A DNA stretch of 47,933 bases. Source: Kiritimatiellia bacterium. Lineage in GTDB: Bacteria; Verrucomicrobiota; Kiritimatiellia; JAAZAB01. Each line of letters opens with the position of its first letter. Within the stretch, counting starts at the first letter, position 1. The notes beneath the pieces are model-generated. The model saw only the letters and a list, made by a program, of their open reading frames with translations. It did not search any database and was not told the DNA's origin. The stretch is from NCBI GenBank assembly GCA_028715905.1, contig JAQUQV010000011.1, positions 1 through 47,933 on the forward strand, written 5' to 3'. The position numbers and the translations under genes were made by a program. This document shows, in pieces, positions 13,857-20,413 of this stretch.

Positions 13857-16040
13857 ATGAATGCCCCTCCTTCCAATAACGCCGAAACCGTTTCCGGCAC
13901 CGTTCAAAGAATCATTTACCGCGATGAGAACACCGCTTACACCGTTTGTTCGCTGAAACCAGACGCCGGACACGATGAAATCACGGTGGTGGGCGCCAGC
14001 GCCGCCATCTGGCCGGGCGAGCGCCTGCAGGTTTCCGGCCGGTGGACACGCCACAAAACGCACGGGGTTCAGTTTAACGCGGACAAAATCGTCTGTATTG
14101 AGCCGCGGACCGTTTCCGGGATAAAAAAATATCTGGCCAGCGGTCTGATCAAGGGGGTGGGGGAGATGCTGGCCGAACGGCTGGTTAAAAAATTCGGAAC
14201 GGACACCCTGCGGGTGATTGACGAGGAATCGGCGCGCCTGGAATCGGTGGAAGGAATCGGCCGCAGAAAACGCGAACGGATCAGGCAATCGTGGCTTGAA
14301 CAGAAAGCGGTGCGCGACATCATGATTTTTCTTCACGCAAACGGGGTGAGCGCATCGCAGGCCACCCGCATTTACAACGCTTACGGCGATAACGCGGTCG
14401 CCGTTCTCCGGCAGAACCCGTACCGGCTTGCCGCCGATATCTGGGGGATCGGGTTCAAATCGGCCGATAAAATTGCGATGAACATGGGCATCCCGATGCA
14501 ATCGGTGGTTCGCGCGCGGGCGGGGCTGGCTTATATGTTGCAAACCATGGCCGAGGAAGGACATTGCTATTGCGGCAAGGACGAATTGCTGGCCGGAACG
14601 GGCGAACAGTTGGAGATCGGATTCAATCTGCTGGAAGAAGCGCTTGGACTGGAACTGGCCGCGGGCAACCTTATCAGCGAAAACACGGAAATTTATATGC
14701 CCGCTTTATATTATTCCGAGACGGGCTGCGCCTCCAATTTAAAACGTTTGCAGGAGGACAGCGTCTCAAACGCCGGCCGCATCAAAGCGGCCAGCGCGGT
14801 GGAATGGGCCGCCGGCCGGATGAAAATTTCCTTCTCGCCGGCGCAGGCCGCGGCGCTCAATATGGCCATTAACGAGAAAGTCGGCATCATAACGGGCGGA
14901 CCGGGTGTCGGGAAAACCACGATTATCAAGGCGCTCGTGGACATTTTTTCGGCCAAAAAGATGGCGGTGCGCCTGGCCGCGCCCACCGGCCGGGCCGCCA
15001 AAAGGATGGAAGAAGCCACGGGCCATCAGGCCACGACCATTCACCGCCTGTTAAAATTCCAACCCGGCCTTGAAAGGTTTGAATATGGCGCCGACAAACG
15101 ACTGGAAGGCGATGTCTTTATTCTGGACGAAGTATCCATGATTGACGTTGTGCTCATGAATTGCTTTCTGCGGGCTTTGCCGGGCCGGGCGCGCCTCCTG
15201 TTGATCGGCGATGCTGACCAACTGCCGAGCGTCGGCCCCGGCAATGTGCTCCGCGACCTGATTGACAGCGGCGCTTTCCCGGCCATTAAGCTGGATAAAA
15301 TTTTCCGCCAATCAGAGAAAAGCCTGATTGTGCGCAATGCGCACCTGGTGAATTCCGGCCGATTTTTTGAACTGGGCGGCGACGGTGAAAATGATTTTAT
15401 CCGGGATTTTTATTTCATTGAGGAAAACGAGCCGGCGCAGGTTGTCGCCCGGATGCTTGAACTGGTTGCGGAACGCATTCCGCGCCGGTTCAGGATGAGC
15501 CCGCGCACCGATATTCAGGTGCTGACTCCCATGCGCCGCTTTGAACTGGGCGCGGACAATTTGAACGCGGTTTTACAGGGCGCGATTAATCCGCGGGGCG
15601 AGGGGATCGTTTCATTCGGACGCACCTACCGCGCCGGGGACCGGGTGATGCAGATGCGCAATAATTATGACAAAGACGTCTACAACGGCGATATCGGCCT
15701 GATTCGCAGTGTTAATCATGAGGACCAACAGGTGATTATTGATTATGACGGACGGGAGGTCGTCTACGATTTCAGCGAAATGGACGAAATCAACCTGGCC
15801 TACGCCTCTTCCATTCACAAGGCCCAGGGCAGCGAATATCCCGCGGTGATCATCCTGCTGACGACCCAGCATTTCAAGCTGCTCCAGCGCAACCTGCTGT
15901 ACACGGCCCTGACCCGGGGGCGGAAACTGGTCTGCCTGGTCGGCTCCAGGAAGGCCGCGGCCATAGCCATTCATAACAATCATACCGCCGCGCGCCGCAC
16001 GGGGCTTAAACAGCGCCTGTCCGGAAGAAATATAATCTGA
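13857..16040 (+). CDS. recD2: RecD2-type 5'-3' DNA helicase
   Basis: The 727-residue superfamily 1B helicase has the RecD2 N-terminal OB-like region (SGTVQRIIYRDENTAYTVC), the helix-hairpin-helix pair (SGLIKGVGEMLAERL and VEGIGRRKRERI), then Walker A GGPGVGKTT, motif II LDEVSMID, GDADQLPSVGPGN and C-terminal motifs SSIHKAQGSEYPAV and ALTRGRK. RecD2 lacks partnership with RecBC and works in DNA repair. GGAAGGA lies about 25 bases before the ATG at 13857, farther than usual, so the true start may be a nearby non-ATG codon. The protein seems complete and shows no missing motif. Confidence 0.93.
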   Translation: MNAPPSNNAETVSGTVQRIIYRDENTAYTVCSLKPDAGHDEITVVGASAAIWPGERLQVSGRWTRHKTHGVQFNADKIVCIEPRTVSGIKKYLASGLIKGVGEMLAERLVKKFGTDTLRVIDEESARLESVEGIGRRKRERIRQSWLEQKAVRDIMIFLHANGVSASQATRIYNAYGDNAVAVLRQNPYRLAADIWGIGFKSADKIAMNMGIPMQSVVRARAGLAYMLQTMAEEGHCYCGKDELLAGTGEQLEIGFNLLEEALGLELAAGNLISENTEIYMPALYYSETGCASNLKRLQEDSVSNAGRIKAASAVEWAAGRMKISFSPAQAAALNMAINEKVGIITGGPGVGKTTIIKALVDIFSAKKMAVRLAAPTGRAAKRMEEATGHQATTIHRLLKFQPGLERFEYGADKRLEGDVFILDEVSMIDVVLMNCFLRALPGRARLLLIGDADQLPSVGPGNVLRDLIDSGAFPAIKLDKIFRQSEKSLIVRNAHLVNSGRFFELGGDGENDFIRDFYFIEENEPAQVVARMLELVAERIPRRFRMSPRTDIQVLTPMRRFELGADNLNAVLQGAINPRGEGIVSFGRTYRAGDRVMQMRNNYDKDVYNGDIGLIRSVNHEDQQVIIDYDGREVVYDFSEMDEINLAYASSIHKAQGSEYPAVIILLTTQHFKLLQRNLLYTALTRGRKLVCLVGSRKAAAIAIHNNHTAARRTGLKQRLSGRNII

Positions 16041-16110
16041 CCAGGGCGGCAGTGCCGGTCTTCTTCAAACTTCTACGCAAAAACGTGTGTATGTTTACAG
16101 AAAAGGTTCC

Positions 16111-16178
16111 AAAGCGGGTTATGCCCGCAACCCAAGACAATCAACCACGGATGGACACTGATGAACGCCGATAAAAAA
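16111..16178 (+). repeat. Dispersed hairpin repeat, copy A
   Basis: AAAGCGGGTTATGCCCGCAA opens the unit (GCGGG/CCCGC stem, TTATG loop), followed by CCCAA and, after a short spacer, ACCACGGATGGACACTGATG. Copies B (21148-21216) and C (40857-40925) share the hairpin and AACCCAA and an ACGGA-type tail. The tail runs into the first in-frame ATG upstream of the glycoside-hydrolase-like gene, so that ATG is repeat-derived and not the gene start. Confidence 0.8.
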
Positions 16179-16195
16179 ATCAGAAAAAAAATGAC

Positions 16196-16216
16196 TTTAA
16201 CATCGTTTATGTTAAA
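16196..16216. promoter_or_regulatory. Inverted repeat, candidate operator of the 16239 operon
   Basis: TTTAACAT and its perfect complement ATGTTAAA flank a five-base centre (CGTTT). The site sits eight bases before the GGGAGGGG ribosome-binding site of the following gene. Its symmetry and size fit a dimeric repressor site or a small hairpin at the start of the mRNA. No regulator is encoded nearby, so this is a suggestion only. Confidence 0.35.
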
Positions 16217-16238
16217 AAAGCAAGGGAGGGGAAATAAA

Positions 16239-18431
16239 GTGTCAGGACAAAACATGGTCGATCTGCCGGTCGGCGCCAATCCGCCGCCGCTGGAATTTGC
16301 TCATTTCCCGACGAAACACCAGGCGGTAATCTGGCGCAACTGGGAAATGACGCCGGTTAAACGGCTGGCGGATGTTTTAATGGCCACGGAGACAGAAATA
16401 ACGGTTGCCGCCGGGGAAATGGGACTGCGCGTTCCGCCGGAGGTTGAAAAGAAATGGCTTGAGCGCGGTTATATCACCATTATCCGCAGCAACTGGCATC
16501 TTTTGCCCTATGAACAGCTTCTGCAACTGCTGGGCTGGACTCCTGAAAGACTGGCCTATACATTGCGCGAGGATGATTTCCTCTGGCACAAACTGGGATC
16601 GTTGAAGCCGGCCGCGCCGGCGGTGTATTACCGGCCGCTGACTGGCGGCGAAGCCGCGCGCACGAGAGAAATCAAAGCGACAATTAAAAAGCATTTTCCT
16701 TCCGTTCCGGAAAACAGCGGCGAAAAACCATTCGCTTTCCTGGCTGAATTTCACAAGAGGGGCGGAGGACAAAAGCCGGGCAGGGATCGTTATGATAATT
16801 TTGATTTAAGGCTGGCGTATTCGTATGCGGCGGTTTACGGGGACCCGCTTCTGGAGCCGGCGCTTGATCCTTACCCGGATGATTTGCTGGCTTGTTACCG
16901 ACGATATGGCATTAACGGCGTGTGGCTGCAGGGAATCCTTTACAGTCTTATTCCCTGGAAAATTGCGCCGGAGTTTTCCGCGGGCTGGGAAAAACGGCTG
17001 GCAAGCCTGAGGAAACTCACCGAACGGGCGGCCAGATACGGCATAGGAATTTACCTTTATCTTAACGAACCGCGCCCGTTGCCAATAAAATTTTTTAAGC
17101 ATCATCCCGAATTGAAAGGCGCGGAATATCCCCGTTCGGGACTGGCAAATTTCTGCACTTCCAGAAAACCTGTTCTTGAGTTCTTGGAAAAATCCAGCGC
17201 GCGTCTTTTTACGGAAGCGCCCGCCCTGGCCGGGGTCTTTACCATCACCATGTCGGAAAACCCCACCAACTGTCATTCAAAAGGCCAGGTCCGGCAATGC
17301 CCGCGTTGTTCAAAGCGGCCGGCGCCGGAAGTCATTGCCGAGGTGAACCGCGTCATTGAACGCGGGATTCACCGCGCTAATCCTTCGGCCCGCGTGATTG
17401 TATGGGATTGGGCCTGGAGGACGGAATGGGAACACGCGGCCCTGGACCTTCTGCCGAACAATGTGGAATTGATGTGCACCAGCGAATGGGGCACGCCGAT
17501 AAGCGCCGGTGGAATCAGAAGTTCAGTGAAGGATTATTCCATCTCGCAGGTCGGCCCGTCCGCCCGGGCGAAAGCGATGTGGGCGCATGCCCGGCGGCGC
17601 GGGCTGAAAACAATCGCCAAAATCCAGATCAACAACAGCTGGGAATGCTCGGCGGTTCCTTTTGTTCCGGTCCCGGATCTCGTGGAAAAACATCTCCGGA
17701 ACCTGAAAAAATGCGGGGTGAACGGCGTGATGACCAACTGGACGCTGGGTGGATATCCGGGCGGGAATATGGAACTGTTCCGCCGCACCCCGGGGCAAAT
17801 AGCCGAGAACTTCGGCCCGCGGGCAGCGGCTTATGTGCGCAAGGGACAAAAACTGTTAAGCCGGGCTTTTGCCGAATTTCCCTTTCATGTTGCGGTGCTT
17901 TATTGTGCCCCGCAGAACATGGGACCGGCCAACCTGCTCCATGCAAAACCGACCCGTTACAAAGCAACCATGGTCGGCATTCCGTATGACGATGTGACAT
18001 CCTGGCGGGCGATCTATCCGCGCGCAATTTTTGAAAAGCAGTTTGAAAAATTATGCGTCGGATGGGAAAAAGGGTTCCGCCGGCTGCGGAAAGCCCTGAC
18101 ATTGCCGGGGGCGCGGCGCAAGCAAGAACTTGAGGAATTACTGCGAATCACCACGGCGGTCTACTGTCACTTCCGGACCGTCTGCCTGCAGACTGCCTTC
18201 GTCCGTTTGCGCGGCCGCGCCGGCCGGAAAATATCGGCAATCATTGCCGAGGAAATGGAGCTGGCAAAAACCCTGCATGGCGTCATGACCGCGGACTCGC
18301 GGATCGGGTTTGAAGCCAGTAATCATTACTATTACACGGCCAATTCTCTCATGGAAAAAGTCCTGAATTGCGCATATTTGCAGGAAGCATATGCGCGGAA
18401 AAACAAAAAACAAGAAAACGAGAGGCAGTAA
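16239..18431 (+). CDS. Glycoside-hydrolase-like TIM-barrel protein, uncharacterised family
   Basis: The start is a GTG at 16239, seven bases after GGGAGGGG; in-frame ATG codons upstream lie in repeat DNA. The 730-residue protein begins with a domain of about 110 residues rich in Trp and Leu (WERLAYTL-like blocks around LLGWTPERLAYTLRED). A probable barrel follows, with YGINGVWLQG, YGIGIYLYLNEPRPLP, AGVFTITMSENPTNCHS, VIVWDWAWRTEWE and VNGVMTNWTLGGYPGG. These Trp/Asn/Glu-rich strand ends resemble GH20- or GH-A-like barrels, with candidate acids at the NEP and SEN positions. No signal peptide is seen. I cannot assign a family or substrate. The M24-like gene starts two bases after its stop, so the pair form an operon. 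Confidence 0.5.
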   Translation: MSGQNMVDLPVGANPPPLEFAHFPTKHQAVIWRNWEMTPVKRLADVLMATETEITVAAGEMGLRVPPEVEKKWLERGYITIIRSNWHLLPYEQLLQLLGWTPERLAYTLREDDFLWHKLGSLKPAAPAVYYRPLTGGEAARTREIKATIKKHFPSVPENSGEKPFAFLAEFHKRGGGQKPGRDRYDNFDLRLAYSYAAVYGDPLLEPALDPYPDDLLACYRRYGINGVWLQGILYSLIPWKIAPEFSAGWEKRLASLRKLTERAARYGIGIYLYLNEPRPLPIKFFKHHPELKGAEYPRSGLANFCTSRKPVLEFLEKSSARLFTEAPALAGVFTITMSENPTNCHSKGQVRQCPRCSKRPAPEVIAEVNRVIERGIHRANPSARVIVWDWAWRTEWEHAALDLLPNNVELMCTSEWGTPISAGGIRSSVKDYSISQVGPSARAKAMWAHARRRGLKTIAKIQINNSWECSAVPFVPVPDLVEKHLRNLKKCGVNGVMTNWTLGGYPGGNMELFRRTPGQIAENFGPRAAAYVRKGQKLLSRAFAEFPFHVAVLYCAPQNMGPANLLHAKPTRYKATMVGIPYDDVTSWRAIYPRAIFEKQFEKLCVGWEKGFRRLRKALTLPGARRKQELEELLRITTAVYCHFRTVCLQTAFVRLRGRAGRKISAIIAEEMELAKTLHGVMTADSRIGFEASNHYYYTANSLMEKVLNCAYLQEAYARKNKKQENERQ

Positions 18432-18432
18432 A

Positions 18433-19599
18433 ATGGCCTATCTGGATAAAAAAGAAAGCAATGTCCGCGCCGCCAACCTCCGCAAAATCATGAAAGCAAA
18501 AGCCCTTGACGCGGTCCTCGTTTATTACGACGAATTCAACATCGGCAACGGCTGGTATCTGACGGGATGGTGTCCGCAGTTTGAATGCGGCGCGGTCCTG
18601 GTGCCGGCCAGGGGCGCGCCGTTAATTCTGGGCGGACCGGAAAGCGAGCCTTTCGCCAAGCTGGACAGCGCCATTACCGATACCAGGAATTTCCCGGTCT
18701 TCATGGTGCCCGACGAGGAATATCCCAATGCCGTCATCACGGATTTCAAGGCGCTTTTCAATGAAATGAAAAAGCGCCTGGGCAGGTTAAAGAAAATCGG
18801 CCTGGTGGGCGGCGGGCGGATGCCGGCCGACTGTTCCCGTCAGATTGCGGCCGGATTTAAAAGCGTCCGGCTGGTTGACATAACGGAAGCTTTTGTACGT
18901 TTGCGCTATATTAAATCGCCATGGGAAAGATCGCAAATCCGCGCGGCTTTTAAGCTGGCCGACTGTGCATATGCGGCCATGAAAAAGACGGTCGCGCCCG
19001 GAGTGTCTGAAATTGAGGTGGCGGCCGCCGGTGAGTATGCCGTCCGCCGCCGCGGCGCGAGCGGTTTTGGATTCACCGCGATTGTGGGAAGCGGCCGGCG
19101 CTCCAACGCCGTTGTGCCCACCGCCAGCTCAAAAAAAATGACAAACGGAGAACTGGTCATGATCGGCATTGCGCCGAAAGTGCGGGGATACGCGGGTGTG
19201 GTTGGCGACGTGCTGGCGGTCAACGGGAAATACACTGCCCGGCAGAAGGAGTGCGTAAAACATCTGAAAGAAGCCTTTTGTCTTACAAGGGAGGCTTTGG
19301 CGGCCGGCAGGCCCGGCTGTGAGATTGACGCGCCGGCCCGGGCCTATTTCACGAAAGTCGGCCTGTCAAAATATCTTGTCTGCCCGTTCGTGCATACCAT
19401 CGGTCTGCACGAGGCGGAATCGCCGTTCTTCGGCCCCAACAGCAAGGACGTGCTCAAGCCCGGCATGACGGTCTGTGTTGACGTAAGCTTCTTCGGGCAT
19501 CCGGAATTTAACGGGGTCCGGATTGAAACGGGCTATGAAATTTCCAATAAAGGCATTATTCCTTTGAGTCCGTCAATGGACACGCATTTTACCGTCTGA
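18433..19599 (+). CDS. M24/creatinase-fold protein lacking canonical metal ligands
   Basis: The 388-residue protein has the creatinase N-terminal domain followed by a pita-bread fold typical of M24 peptidases and creatinase. Conserved features include YIKSPWERSQIRAAFKLAD, VAPGVSEIEV, the His in FVHTIGLHEAESPFF and LKPGMTVCVDVSFFG. The first Asp pair that binds metal in aminopeptidase P (the DxG...GYxSD block) is not seen: the region reads MIGIAPKVRGYAGVVGDV. This is more like creatinase, which is metal-free, than like a peptidase. The start has GAGAGG seven bases upstream. The neighbouring barrel protein suggests work on a sugar- or creatine-like small molecule, but that is speculative. Confidence 0.75.
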   Translation: MAYLDKKESNVRAANLRKIMKAKALDAVLVYYDEFNIGNGWYLTGWCPQFECGAVLVPARGAPLILGGPESEPFAKLDSAITDTRNFPVFMVPDEEYPNAVITDFKALFNEMKKRLGRLKKIGLVGGGRMPADCSRQIAAGFKSVRLVDITEAFVRLRYIKSPWERSQIRAAFKLADCAYAAMKKTVAPGVSEIEVAAAGEYAVRRRGASGFGFTAIVGSGRRSNAVVPTASSKKMTNGELVMIGIAPKVRGYAGVVGDVLAVNGKYTARQKECVKHLKEAFCLTREALAAGRPGCEIDAPARAYFTKVGLSKYLVCPFVHTIGLHEAESPFFGPNSKDVLKPGMTVCVDVSFFGHPEFNGVRIETGYEISNKGIIPLSPSMDTHFTV

Positions 19600-19772
19600 A
19601 CGGGATGGTTTTTTGCTTGTTTTTTTCCGGGATTGTAATAGTATTCACTTTATTTCATTCCCATAACAATCGGGGGAGAAAGGAGGAAGACGGGCATTAA
19701 ATTTGCGCAATTTTCCGCATTTTCGGCAGAACGATAAACTTTAAGCAGTTATAAATCTAAAAGGAGAAATAT

Positions 19773-20261
19773 ATGAGTTGGAAAATGTTGTTGATGGTAG
19801 CCGTTGTTGCCGCGTTTTCGGCCGTGTCGTTTAACGCCGTTGCCAATGAAAAAGATGCCTGTGACAAGCAGTTGACGGCGACCCATGAAATGACCCTGAC
19901 CGGGAAAATCATCCTGCAGGAAGACGCAAAGGGCGATATCAAGGCCACGGATAAAGTGGAAAAGACCAAGGAAGTCATTGACATCAAGGGGTTTGAGAAA
20001 ATCACCATAAAATATGCCCTGGTTGAAGCCGATGGATCCGAAATAGCCCTGCCGATTCCCAAGGCCCGGCCCGGCGAGAAGGCCATTGATTTGGCGGCGC
20101 TTGTGGGCAAAAACGTAAAACTTGTCGCCAAGGGCAAAATCAAGGACGGCAAGAAATGCATCGCAAAAATCCTGAGCGTTGAGGAAGAAGCGGCTTCGCC
20201 GGAAACGCCGGCCTCGGCCGAGACACCGGCTGAAGTTCCGGCCGCCCCTGCCGCGGAATAA
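19773..20261 (+). CDS. Small exported protein with Ala/Pro/Glu-rich tail
   Basis: The 162 residues start with a signal peptide (LLMVAVVAAFSAVSFNAVA, cleavage likely after Ala-Asn-Ala-type motif near residue 25). A beta-rich middle contains KITIKYALVEADGSEIALP and VGKNVKLVAKGKIKDGKKC, reminiscent of small OB-like domains of unknown function. The tail repeats Pro/Ala/Glu (SPETPASAETPAEVPAAPAA) and is probably disordered. An AAGGAG site lies seven bases before the ATG. A strong terminator follows directly. Function is unknown. Confidence 0.75.
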   Translation: MSWKMLLMVAVVAAFSAVSFNAVANEKDACDKQLTATHEMTLTGKIILQEDAKGDIKATDKVEKTKEVIDIKGFEKITIKYALVEADGSEIALPIPKARPGEKAIDLAALVGKNVKLVAKGKIKDGKKCIAKILSVEEEAASPETPASAETPAEVPAAPAAE

Positions 20262-20283
20262 CATCCGCCGGAAAAGTTGTTTT

Positions 20284-20327
20284 AAAAAAAAGAAGGAAGC
20301 GCCTGCATGCGTTTCCTTCTTTTTTTT
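20284..20327 (+). terminator. Rho-independent terminator
   Basis: A 19-pair stem starts with an A run (20284-20291), continues with GAAGGAAGCGC, and pairs with GCGTTTCCTTC followed by a T run to 20327, around a six-base loop. There is one G-T pair. The A run and T run make it likely to work in both directions; it follows the secreted-protein gene by about 20 bases. Confidence 0.9.
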
Positions 20328-20353
20328 ATTGCGCCGCGGAAAACCGGTTATGC

Positions 20354-20381
20354 TTGATTTTTATGTATTACTTGTTAAAAT
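20354..20381 (+). promoter_or_regulatory. Candidate promoter of pcm
   Basis: TTGATT (20354-20359) and TAAAAT (20376-20381) are spaced 16 bases. A start near 20388 leaves about 25 bases before the GTG at 20414. Confidence 0.4.
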
Positions 20382-20413
20382 TTATGCAAACTGAAAGGGG
20401 TTAATCGGAAAAA

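Follow-up and report, generated by a model that had tools for sequence, protein, structure and literature searches.

A putative catabolic module pairing a glycosidase-like barrel protein with a pita-bread protein that lacks the metal-ligand aspartates

Two adjacent genes on the forward strand of the window, the whole stretch of 47,933 nucleotides that was analysed, raise the question of what their products do and whether they work together. The first-pass annotation placed the pair at 16239–19599 and read it as a small catabolic module, made by a barrel protein and a creatinase-like partner. The pair is real. Both reading frames are open at these coordinates, and close relatives of both proteins exist in other genomes, at 46–60% identity for the barrel and 70–75% for the pita-bread (M24) protein, which sets the pair beyond chance. 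The mechanical ORF of the barrel gene opens at ATG 16161, but an alternative GTG at 16239, with AGGGAGGGG just upstream, yields the 730-residue form. The GTG chosen in the first-pass annotation is the better start, because of this upstream motif and because the alignment of close relatives begins only at about residue 29–35 of the longer form. The M24 gene starts at ATG 18433 and has GAGAGG upstream. The barrel gene stops with TAA at 18429–18431, and a single base (18432), rather than the two bases annotated, separates the genes, which form a tight two-gene unit. The features of the pair are collected in Table 1. Terminator-like hairpins are slightly more frequent in the region (10) than in shuffled sequences (6.5 ± 2.7), and an Rfam search of 15900–20400 identified no RNA family.

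Table 1. Features of the gene pair (nucleotide positions refer to the window, residue numbers to the proteins)
Feature	Position	Strand	Description
Barrel protein gene	16239..18431	+	730 aa, GTG start; ORF and RBS
Barrel protein domains			Residues ~1-175 all-helical N-terminal, ~186-516 TIM barrel, then C-terminal helices; AlphaFold secondary structure
E340 codon	17256..17258	+	Candidate acid/base (inferred); C-terminal end of strand 4 (332-336); invariant in 49/49
E416 codon	17484..17486	+	Candidate nucleophile (inferred); C-terminal end of strand 6 (410-414); invariant in 49/49
M24 (pita-bread) protein gene	18433..19599	+	388 aa; Pfam, model, fold matches, ligand positions
G245 codon	19165..19167	+	Replaces first ligand Asp
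V256 codon	19198..19200	+	Replaces second ligand Asp
H321 codon	19393..19395	+	Ligand-position His kept; H in 69/69 family and paralog sequences
D350 codon	19480..19482	+	Replaces ligand Glu; D in 68/68 (one fragment gapped)
E365 codon	19525..19527	+	Ligand-position Glu kept; E in 68/68 (one fragment gapped)
Terminator-like hairpin and T-run	19591..19609	+	End of unit, overlaps 3' end of M24 gene; weak

The barrel protein had been described as fitting no nameable family, and sequence searches agree. No Pfam or NCBIfam model scored above its cut-off, the single sub-threshold Pfam match being the xylose-isomerase-like TIM barrel (E 0.068). Queried alone against PDB sequences (6hzf included), the protein matched none at E ≤0.1 (best E 1); a profile of 49 sequences reached E 0.13 with a mite allergen and matched nothing relevant. 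These 49 sequences (alignment A3) are the window protein and members of 48 of the 79 barrel loci, the frameshifted L136 being among the loci omitted. Scanned against Pfam at E 0.01, they matched one family only, DUF4838, weakly and in 4 of 49 sequences (best 5.7e-5); DUF4838 is associated with glycosidase-like proteins. The other 45 matched no family at that threshold, GH models included. Thus Pfam, NCBIfam and PDB sequences assign the protein to no characterised GH family, and Pfam assigns its relatives to none. The relatives are widespread: one scan of GTDB species genomes identified 402 stretches encoding them, in many phyla to judge from the record titles, and the gene is present in Oligosphaera ethanolica DSM 24202 (L090); none were found in the viral contigs searched. 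So widespread, and yet so largely devoid of Pfam matches, the barrel proteins are promising candidates for a glycosidase family of their own.

Structure is more informative. The AlphaFold model of the barrel protein (pLDDT 93.2) has the TIM-barrel fold of glycosidases. Foldseek, a check proposed in the first-pass annotation, led from the barrel model to glycosidase-type TIM barrels and from the M24 model to pita-bread folds; for the barrel, GH138, GH20, GH89, GH67, GH115 and GH84 head the list, and D-psicose 3-epimerases occur lower down. These epimerases, along with the xylose-isomerase-like Pfam match, are what a sugar isomerase, epimerase or lyase built on a TIM barrel would be expected to show. 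We regard such an enzyme as improbable, since the top structural matches are glycosidases, DUF4838 is the sole Pfam family met among the relatives, and the invariant glutamates following strands 4 and 6 fit a glycosidase pair. Against singling out these two stands the equal invariance of other acidic residues in the alignment, namely E111, D113, E277, E469, D584, D686, E692 and E706. A hydrophobic segment lies upstream of the barrel in 31 of 78 loci (the 79 barrel loci less L080), but in none of the 10 of 79 loci which carry a close M24 gene, as detected by tblastn; for this reason the operon form of the protein looks cytoplasmic. The barrel protein is most likely an intracellular exo-glycosidase of a family that Pfam, NCBIfam and PDB sequences leave unassigned.

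The partner protein matches PF00557 (6.2e-32) and PF01321 (6.1e-8), and its model (pLDDT 84.5) features the pita-bread fold and a creatinase-type N-terminal domain. Structural comparison ranks creatinase first (Z 39.2, 2.4 Å over 363 residues), with prolidase (37.4) and EutD (37.1) not far behind. By sequence the protein is nearer to prolidases, and creatinases score lower. The metal-ligand set of M24B metallopeptidases, D, D, H, E and E, reads G245, V256, H321, D350 and E365 here. Neither ligand Asp survives in any of the 42 sequences of the protein's group, as the first-pass annotation had noticed for the window protein, and pairwise alignments show that the peptidase His near the first of them is replaced as well. 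The idea of a true prolidase was dropped, since metal ligands are lost. Creatinase lacks the Asp pair of the peptidases on the same fold, a combination found also in the M24 protein. The NCBIfam ectoine model NF038259 scored 40.7 bits against the protein, below its cut-off of 575.

The losses suggest that the M24-like protein may be a catalytically dead pseudoenzyme with a ligand-binding or regulatory role, comparable to the eukaryotic Spt16 and Ebp1, and that only the barrel and a deacetylase found near many M24 genes act on the substrate; Spt16 is indeed present among the fold matches. This is unlikely. The residues at the positions of H321, D350 and E365 are kept wherever a residue is present among the 69 family and paralog sequences (deduplicated by exact sequence identity alone), and the high identity within the family (71–75%) looks like that of a preserved active site. 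Moreover, creatinase and ectoine hydrolase carry out C-N hydrolysis on the pita-bread fold without peptidase chemistry. The clade to which the protein belongs offers a further test of how this fold works without the two-metal site.

The two genes of the window pair form part of a more extensive recurring set, which includes a LacI-type regulator, the M24-like protein, a NodB/CE4-like deacetylase, a DUF6786 protein and the barrel. Linkage was measured in 37 loci chosen from the M24 gene alone, independently of the partners. Within 8 kb of the M24 gene, the barrel resides in 11 loci by the strict count or 13 by HMM, the CE4 gene in 15, the DUF6786 gene in 9, and a LacI-type regulator in 21, a figure without control for genes as common as the LacI type. 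The barrel is missing from this interval in 24 of the 37 loci, and all four partners in 10, although several contigs end nearby. The order of neighbouring module genes varies among genomes, and in two (G252 and G267) the CE4 gene adjoins the barrel apart from the M24 gene. CE4-like proteins conserve D16, H78 and H82 in 13/13. In the window genome, CE4 (contig C17) and DUF6786 relatives reside on contigs other than that of the pair, and a search reaching 8 kb from the pair revealed no LacI-type gene; any co-regulation in this genome would thus be hypothetical. Creatininase genes occur beside some module loci, and an M20-type gene lies a few genes downstream of M24 in L150. A peptide-degradation operon was considered and dropped, as the loci, the M20-type gene notwithstanding, reveal no peptide theme.

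The same grouping is found among divergent paralogs. In 20 paralog stretches, a non-random sample picked for known CE4 or DUF6786 matches, a CE4-like gene is present in 19, accompanied within 6.5 kb by DUF6786 in 16 cases and by an M24 gene in 11. A barrel relative is also present in two paralogous cassettes (L241 and L254), and one genome (G153) hosts a DUF6786-CE4-M24 cassette (L243) without the M24 type of the window. The neighbourhood is therefore conserved, both in the loci and in the paralogs, and the first-pass reading, which either a lack of such conservation or a characterised GH family for the barrel protein would have undone, is supported by the searches made and needs amendment in size: the small catabolic module keeps conserved company, the set is larger than two genes, and the term catabolic derives from the neighbours.

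Co-occurrence was assessed in 387 genomes of the phylum, in which the M24 family was found in 36, the barrel in 68 and the CE4-like protein in 50. M24 genomes carry the barrel in 33/36 cases (Fisher p 2e-25) and CE4 in 34/36 (p 4e-34), and barrel and CE4 coexist in 41 genomes (p 2e-28), related genomes being treated as independent in these tests. Counted by genus (24, 41 and 28 of 198), the values are 3e-14 for M24 and barrel, 3e-24 for M24 and CE4, and 4e-16 for barrel and CE4. Barrel, M24 and CE4 might nonetheless share no pathway, and co-occur as traits of bacteria living on complex glycans. The M24 loci devoid of partners are consistent with this, as is the fact that L-rhamnose isomerase is likewise enriched in the carriers, being encoded by 34 of 36 M24 genomes and 133 of 230 phylum genomes (thresholds were E 0.001 for the former and E 1e-100 for the latter; all 34 pass the stricter limit). 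We consider it very improbable, because in many genomes the genes lie close together, although their order differs, because the same grouping recurs among divergent paralogs, and because the overlap of M24 and CE4 is much tighter than that of rhaA, CE4 occurring in only 16 of 351 non-M24 genomes. The probable explanation is that a GH-like barrel and an M24 protein that is not a peptidase belong to a conserved catabolic module.

Genes for L-rhamnose utilisation lie near some module genes. In the window genome (L139) rhaA is located 3 bases from the CE4 gene; rhaM and rhaT are found within the M24-CE4-barrel run of L188, rhaA near M24 in L205 and L208, rhaT adjoining the barrel in L120, and an FGGY kinase gene adjoining M24-CE4 in L211. 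In most carrier genomes rhaA resides on a contig other than that of M24, and its enrichment in the carriers could reflect a glycan-eating life style. A link of the module to rhamnose is at present a tentative suggestion.

The data are best read as a cytoplasmic catabolic module, often linked to a LacI-type regulator, whose substrate would be an acylated glycoside taken up by the cell, perhaps one linked to rhamnose; we infer the substrate and each catalytic step from homology, conserved residues and gene company. The barrel would act as an exo-glycosidase, with E340 and E416 as catalytic pair, and release a sugar from the imported glycoside, and the NodB/CE4-like partner would strip an acyl group. 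The M24-like protein, with little or no bound metal, would hydrolyse C-N or C-O bonds much as creatinase or ectoine hydrolase does, and would not act as a peptidase. The DUF6786 protein would aid in handling the sugar product, possibly L-rhamnose or another 6-deoxyhexose related to it. Confidence in these chemical details is low. No tested activity of barrel, M24, CE4 or DUF6786 proteins was found in the literature searched, nor any paper on DUF6786, and searches around creatininase, rhamnose, polysaccharide deacetylase, Planctomycetes, Lentisphaerae and Kiritimatiellota yielded nothing on the module; those on ectoine hydrolase (EutD) and on the pita-bread fold or creatinase brought up general background. 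It is conceivable, though we would not bet on it, that Lentisphaerae, Kiritimatiellota and relatives share an undescribed degradation pathway in which glycosidases of a new family work with M24 hydrolases of a metal-free clade and with a deacylase of the NodB/CE4 type, and that paralogous M24-CE4-DUF6786 cassettes, sometimes with a barrel or creatininase relative, serve different substrates, as amide- or amidine-bearing 6-deoxyhexose conjugates. The partner set offers a concrete route to the substrate in a cultured relative, by way of its LacI-type regulator and the genes linked to it.

Known systems resemble the module in part. The best Foldseek match of the barrel (5.6e-12) is the GH138 enzyme targeting rhamnogalacturonan II (6hzf), and GH67 (VIA, Z 18.3 to the barrel model) is also similar. 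Enzymes of families GH138, GH20, GH67, GH84, GH89 and GH115 share with the barrel protein a TIM barrel and a subsequent helical region, but identity is 6–16% in the listed fold alignments, and the barrel protein has an extra N-terminal helical domain, scarcely covered by the fold searches. L-rhamnose utilisation operons have rhaA, rhaM, rhaT or an FGGY kinase gene in common with some module loci; in contrast to these operons, such a gene is found in only four of the 37 M24 loci (L188, L205, L208 and L211). Xaa-Pro dipeptidase and aminopeptidase P (M24B) are nearest to the M24 protein by sequence and have an equal two-domain layout, but in the M24 protein two of the five metal ligands are lost and one Glu is changed to Asp. 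Creatinase (1kp0, 1chm, 7yto) features the same pita-bread fold at 18–19% identity; unlike creatinase, the M24 protein is linked to sugar genes. Ectoine hydrolase EutD/DoeA is an M24-type hydrolase as well, close to the M24 protein in fold. The deacetylase partner of the M24 protein is of the NodB/CE4 type, whereas EutE, the deacetylase partner of EutD, belongs to another family. The eutDE genes are grouped in the catabolic clusters described in PMC13188858.

Two open reading frames lie at the positions claimed by the first-pass annotation, and the observation is sound (see Table). The genes flanking the pair within the window, read by eye, show no obvious sugar link.

Table. Features of the window and of related loci (L, genomic locus; G000, the window's own genome; C, contig)
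Feature	Position	Remarks
Barrel gene	16239-18431 (+)	most likely start GTG 16239; strong ribosome-binding site upstream; product 730 aa
M24 gene	18433-19599 (+)	start ATG 18433, one base past the barrel stop; product 388 aa
Terminator-like hairpin	19591-19609	hairpins here not much above shuffles
rhaA, then directly a CE4-like gene	L139:334-2490 (G000:C17)	window's own genome
Creatininase-family gene	L042:6686-7426	PF02633; also beside a barrel relative
Creatininase-family gene	L147:8327-9067	PF02633
Creatininase-family genes	L250, L252	identified by BLAST

The first protein fits none of the named families searched, in line with the annotation, and neither product is filed under a characterised family. 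No match above cut-off was found in Pfam or NCBIfam. When 49 barrel relatives were scanned with a limit of E 0.01, 4 weakly matched DUF4838 (best 5.7e-5), and no match came up for the window's own protein. PDB sequence searches, one with a 49-row profile included, returned nothing relevant. AlphaFold gives a confident model (pLDDT 93.2) with a helical N-terminal domain, a TIM barrel and a helical C-terminal part. Glycosidases of the GH138, GH20, GH89, GH67, GH115 and GH84 families occupy the top Foldseek ranks. With a second structural aligner, Cwp19 scored Z 19.6 and GH67 Z 18.3; many rows cluster closely, and these include GH5-type cellulases. E340 and E416, located after strands 4 and 6 according to alignment and model, are invariant in 49/49 rows and plausibly represent the catalytic pair of a glycosidase; the pair is regarded as a candidate because other acids, such as E277 after strand 3 and E469 after strand 7, are also invariant. 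Distant relatives at L016, L017 and L022-L024 reside in open frames of 958-984 codons, and may therefore carry extra domains.

In a simple hydropathy test, a hydrophobic leader precedes the barrel in 31/78 loci overall, but in 0/10 of those with a close M24 gene; since the leader is missing there, the barrel of these loci probably acts inside the cell. Leader-bearing relatives (L093, L108, L117, L131 and 27 further loci) occur in records of Planctomycetota, Bacteroidota, Hydrogenedentota and Omnitrophota, among others, and their sequences suggest an exported form of the family.

The second protein combines M24 and Creatinase_N domains. In fold its model (pLDDT 84.5) comes nearest to creatinase, at Z 39.2 and 2.4 A over 363 residues, and the structural scores of prolidase and EutD follow closely; prolidases give the best sequence scores. 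The reported absence of the Asp metal ligands is borne out by alignments, in which G245 and V256 stand in place of two ligand Asp. D350 replaces a ligand Glu, and H321 and E365 are kept. Residues were counted in a group of 42 sequences (that of the window, 40 others of its type and a divergent one from L076) and in 27 paralogs. H321, D350 and E365 are constant in the group, and in the paralogs at every position bearing a letter. At position 245 the group has G (41) or N (1), and the paralogs have N (20), A (5), S (1) or D (1); position 256 is V (34), A (6), S (1) or T (1) in the group, S (21), T (5) or G (1) in paralogs. By these counts, loss of the ligand Asp is common to a wide M24 clade, one sequence of which keeps Asp at the first position.

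Scanning named GTDB genomes yielded 402 stretches with barrel relatives; 79 loci were kept. Contigs often end near these loci, and the partners counted were a close M24 gene in 10/79 (plus the divergent M24 at L076), a NodB/CE4-like deacetylase gene in 8/79 (a ninth, at L074, is a fragment at a contig end), DUF6786 in 8/79 and a LacI-type regulator in 8/79. The order is LacI, M24, CE4, barrel, DUF6786 in L063, and LacI, M24, CE4, DUF6786, barrel in L073. URO-D/MtaA-like genes recur near barrel relatives (L060, L061, L065, L104, L037, L039). The barrel gene of L067 is on a record titled Candidatus Uhrbacteria, which may be a mis-binned contig, as many close relatives come from Lentisphaerae records.

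An M24 profile was also run against 387 genomes of the phylum, so that loci were not picked via the barrel. It found 37 genes in 36 genomes at or above 567 bits, the next score being 215. Within 8 kb of these genes were found barrel (13/37), DUF6786 (9/37) and LacI-type (21/37) genes; a stricter count gave barrel 11/37 and CE4 15/37. None of the four partners is within 8 kb in 10/37 loci. Genome-wide, barrel and CE4 genes accompany M24 in 33/36 and 34/36 genomes, respectively. The barrel is absent at cut-off from G003, G311 and G359, though in G311 a weaker match adjoins the M24 gene; CE4 is absent from G312 and G365. Taken by itself the barrel is the commoner gene, CE4 being absent from 27/68 barrel genomes. 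The co-occurrence tests ignore relatedness, but are still strong when counted by genus.

Second and third DUF6786-CE4-M24 sets are grouped in other stretches, often within the same genomes. In 20 chosen stretches, a CE4-like gene was found in 19, accompanied by DUF6786 within 6.5 kb in 16 and by an M24 gene in 11. In L241 and L254 the paralogous cassette also includes a divergent barrel. Next to the M24 paralog is a creatininase-family gene in L042, L147 and L250 and a PIG-L gene in L144; in L252 the creatininase-family gene is beside CE4. The window's genome holds relatives of all parts, scattered: an M24 paralog with NagB-like and (by eye) Gfo/Idh-like genes in L140, a DUF6786 relative (29%) on C6, and further barrel relatives on C25 and C6. 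In L141, L142 and L149, of the same genome family, M24 paralogs lie with genes reading like NagB, Gfo/Idh or glycosyltransferases, and L142 also has CE4; this setting could be biosynthetic rather than catabolic.

L-rhamnose is a lead on the substrate, not a finding. rhaM and rhaT are inside the L188 run, rhaA is near M24 in L205 and L208, rhaT adjoins the barrel in L120, and in L211 M24 is next to an FGGY kinase that reads as rhamnulokinase-like. Upstream in L139 are an Amidohydro_2 gene and, by eye, an aminotransferase-like gene. rhaA marks 34/36 M24 genomes versus 133/230 in the phylum, mostly on other contigs.

The evidence supports interpreting the pair as a catabolic module with an unknown substrate, and this reading is extended by the LacI, CE4 and DUF6786 partners recurring in related genomes. 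Most likely, with neither step order nor target bonds implied, a glycoside would be imported and cleaved by the barrel enzyme, the CE4-like enzyme would deacylate, the M24 protein would carry out further hydrolysis, and the sugar would enter central pathways, under control of the LacI-type regulator where linked.
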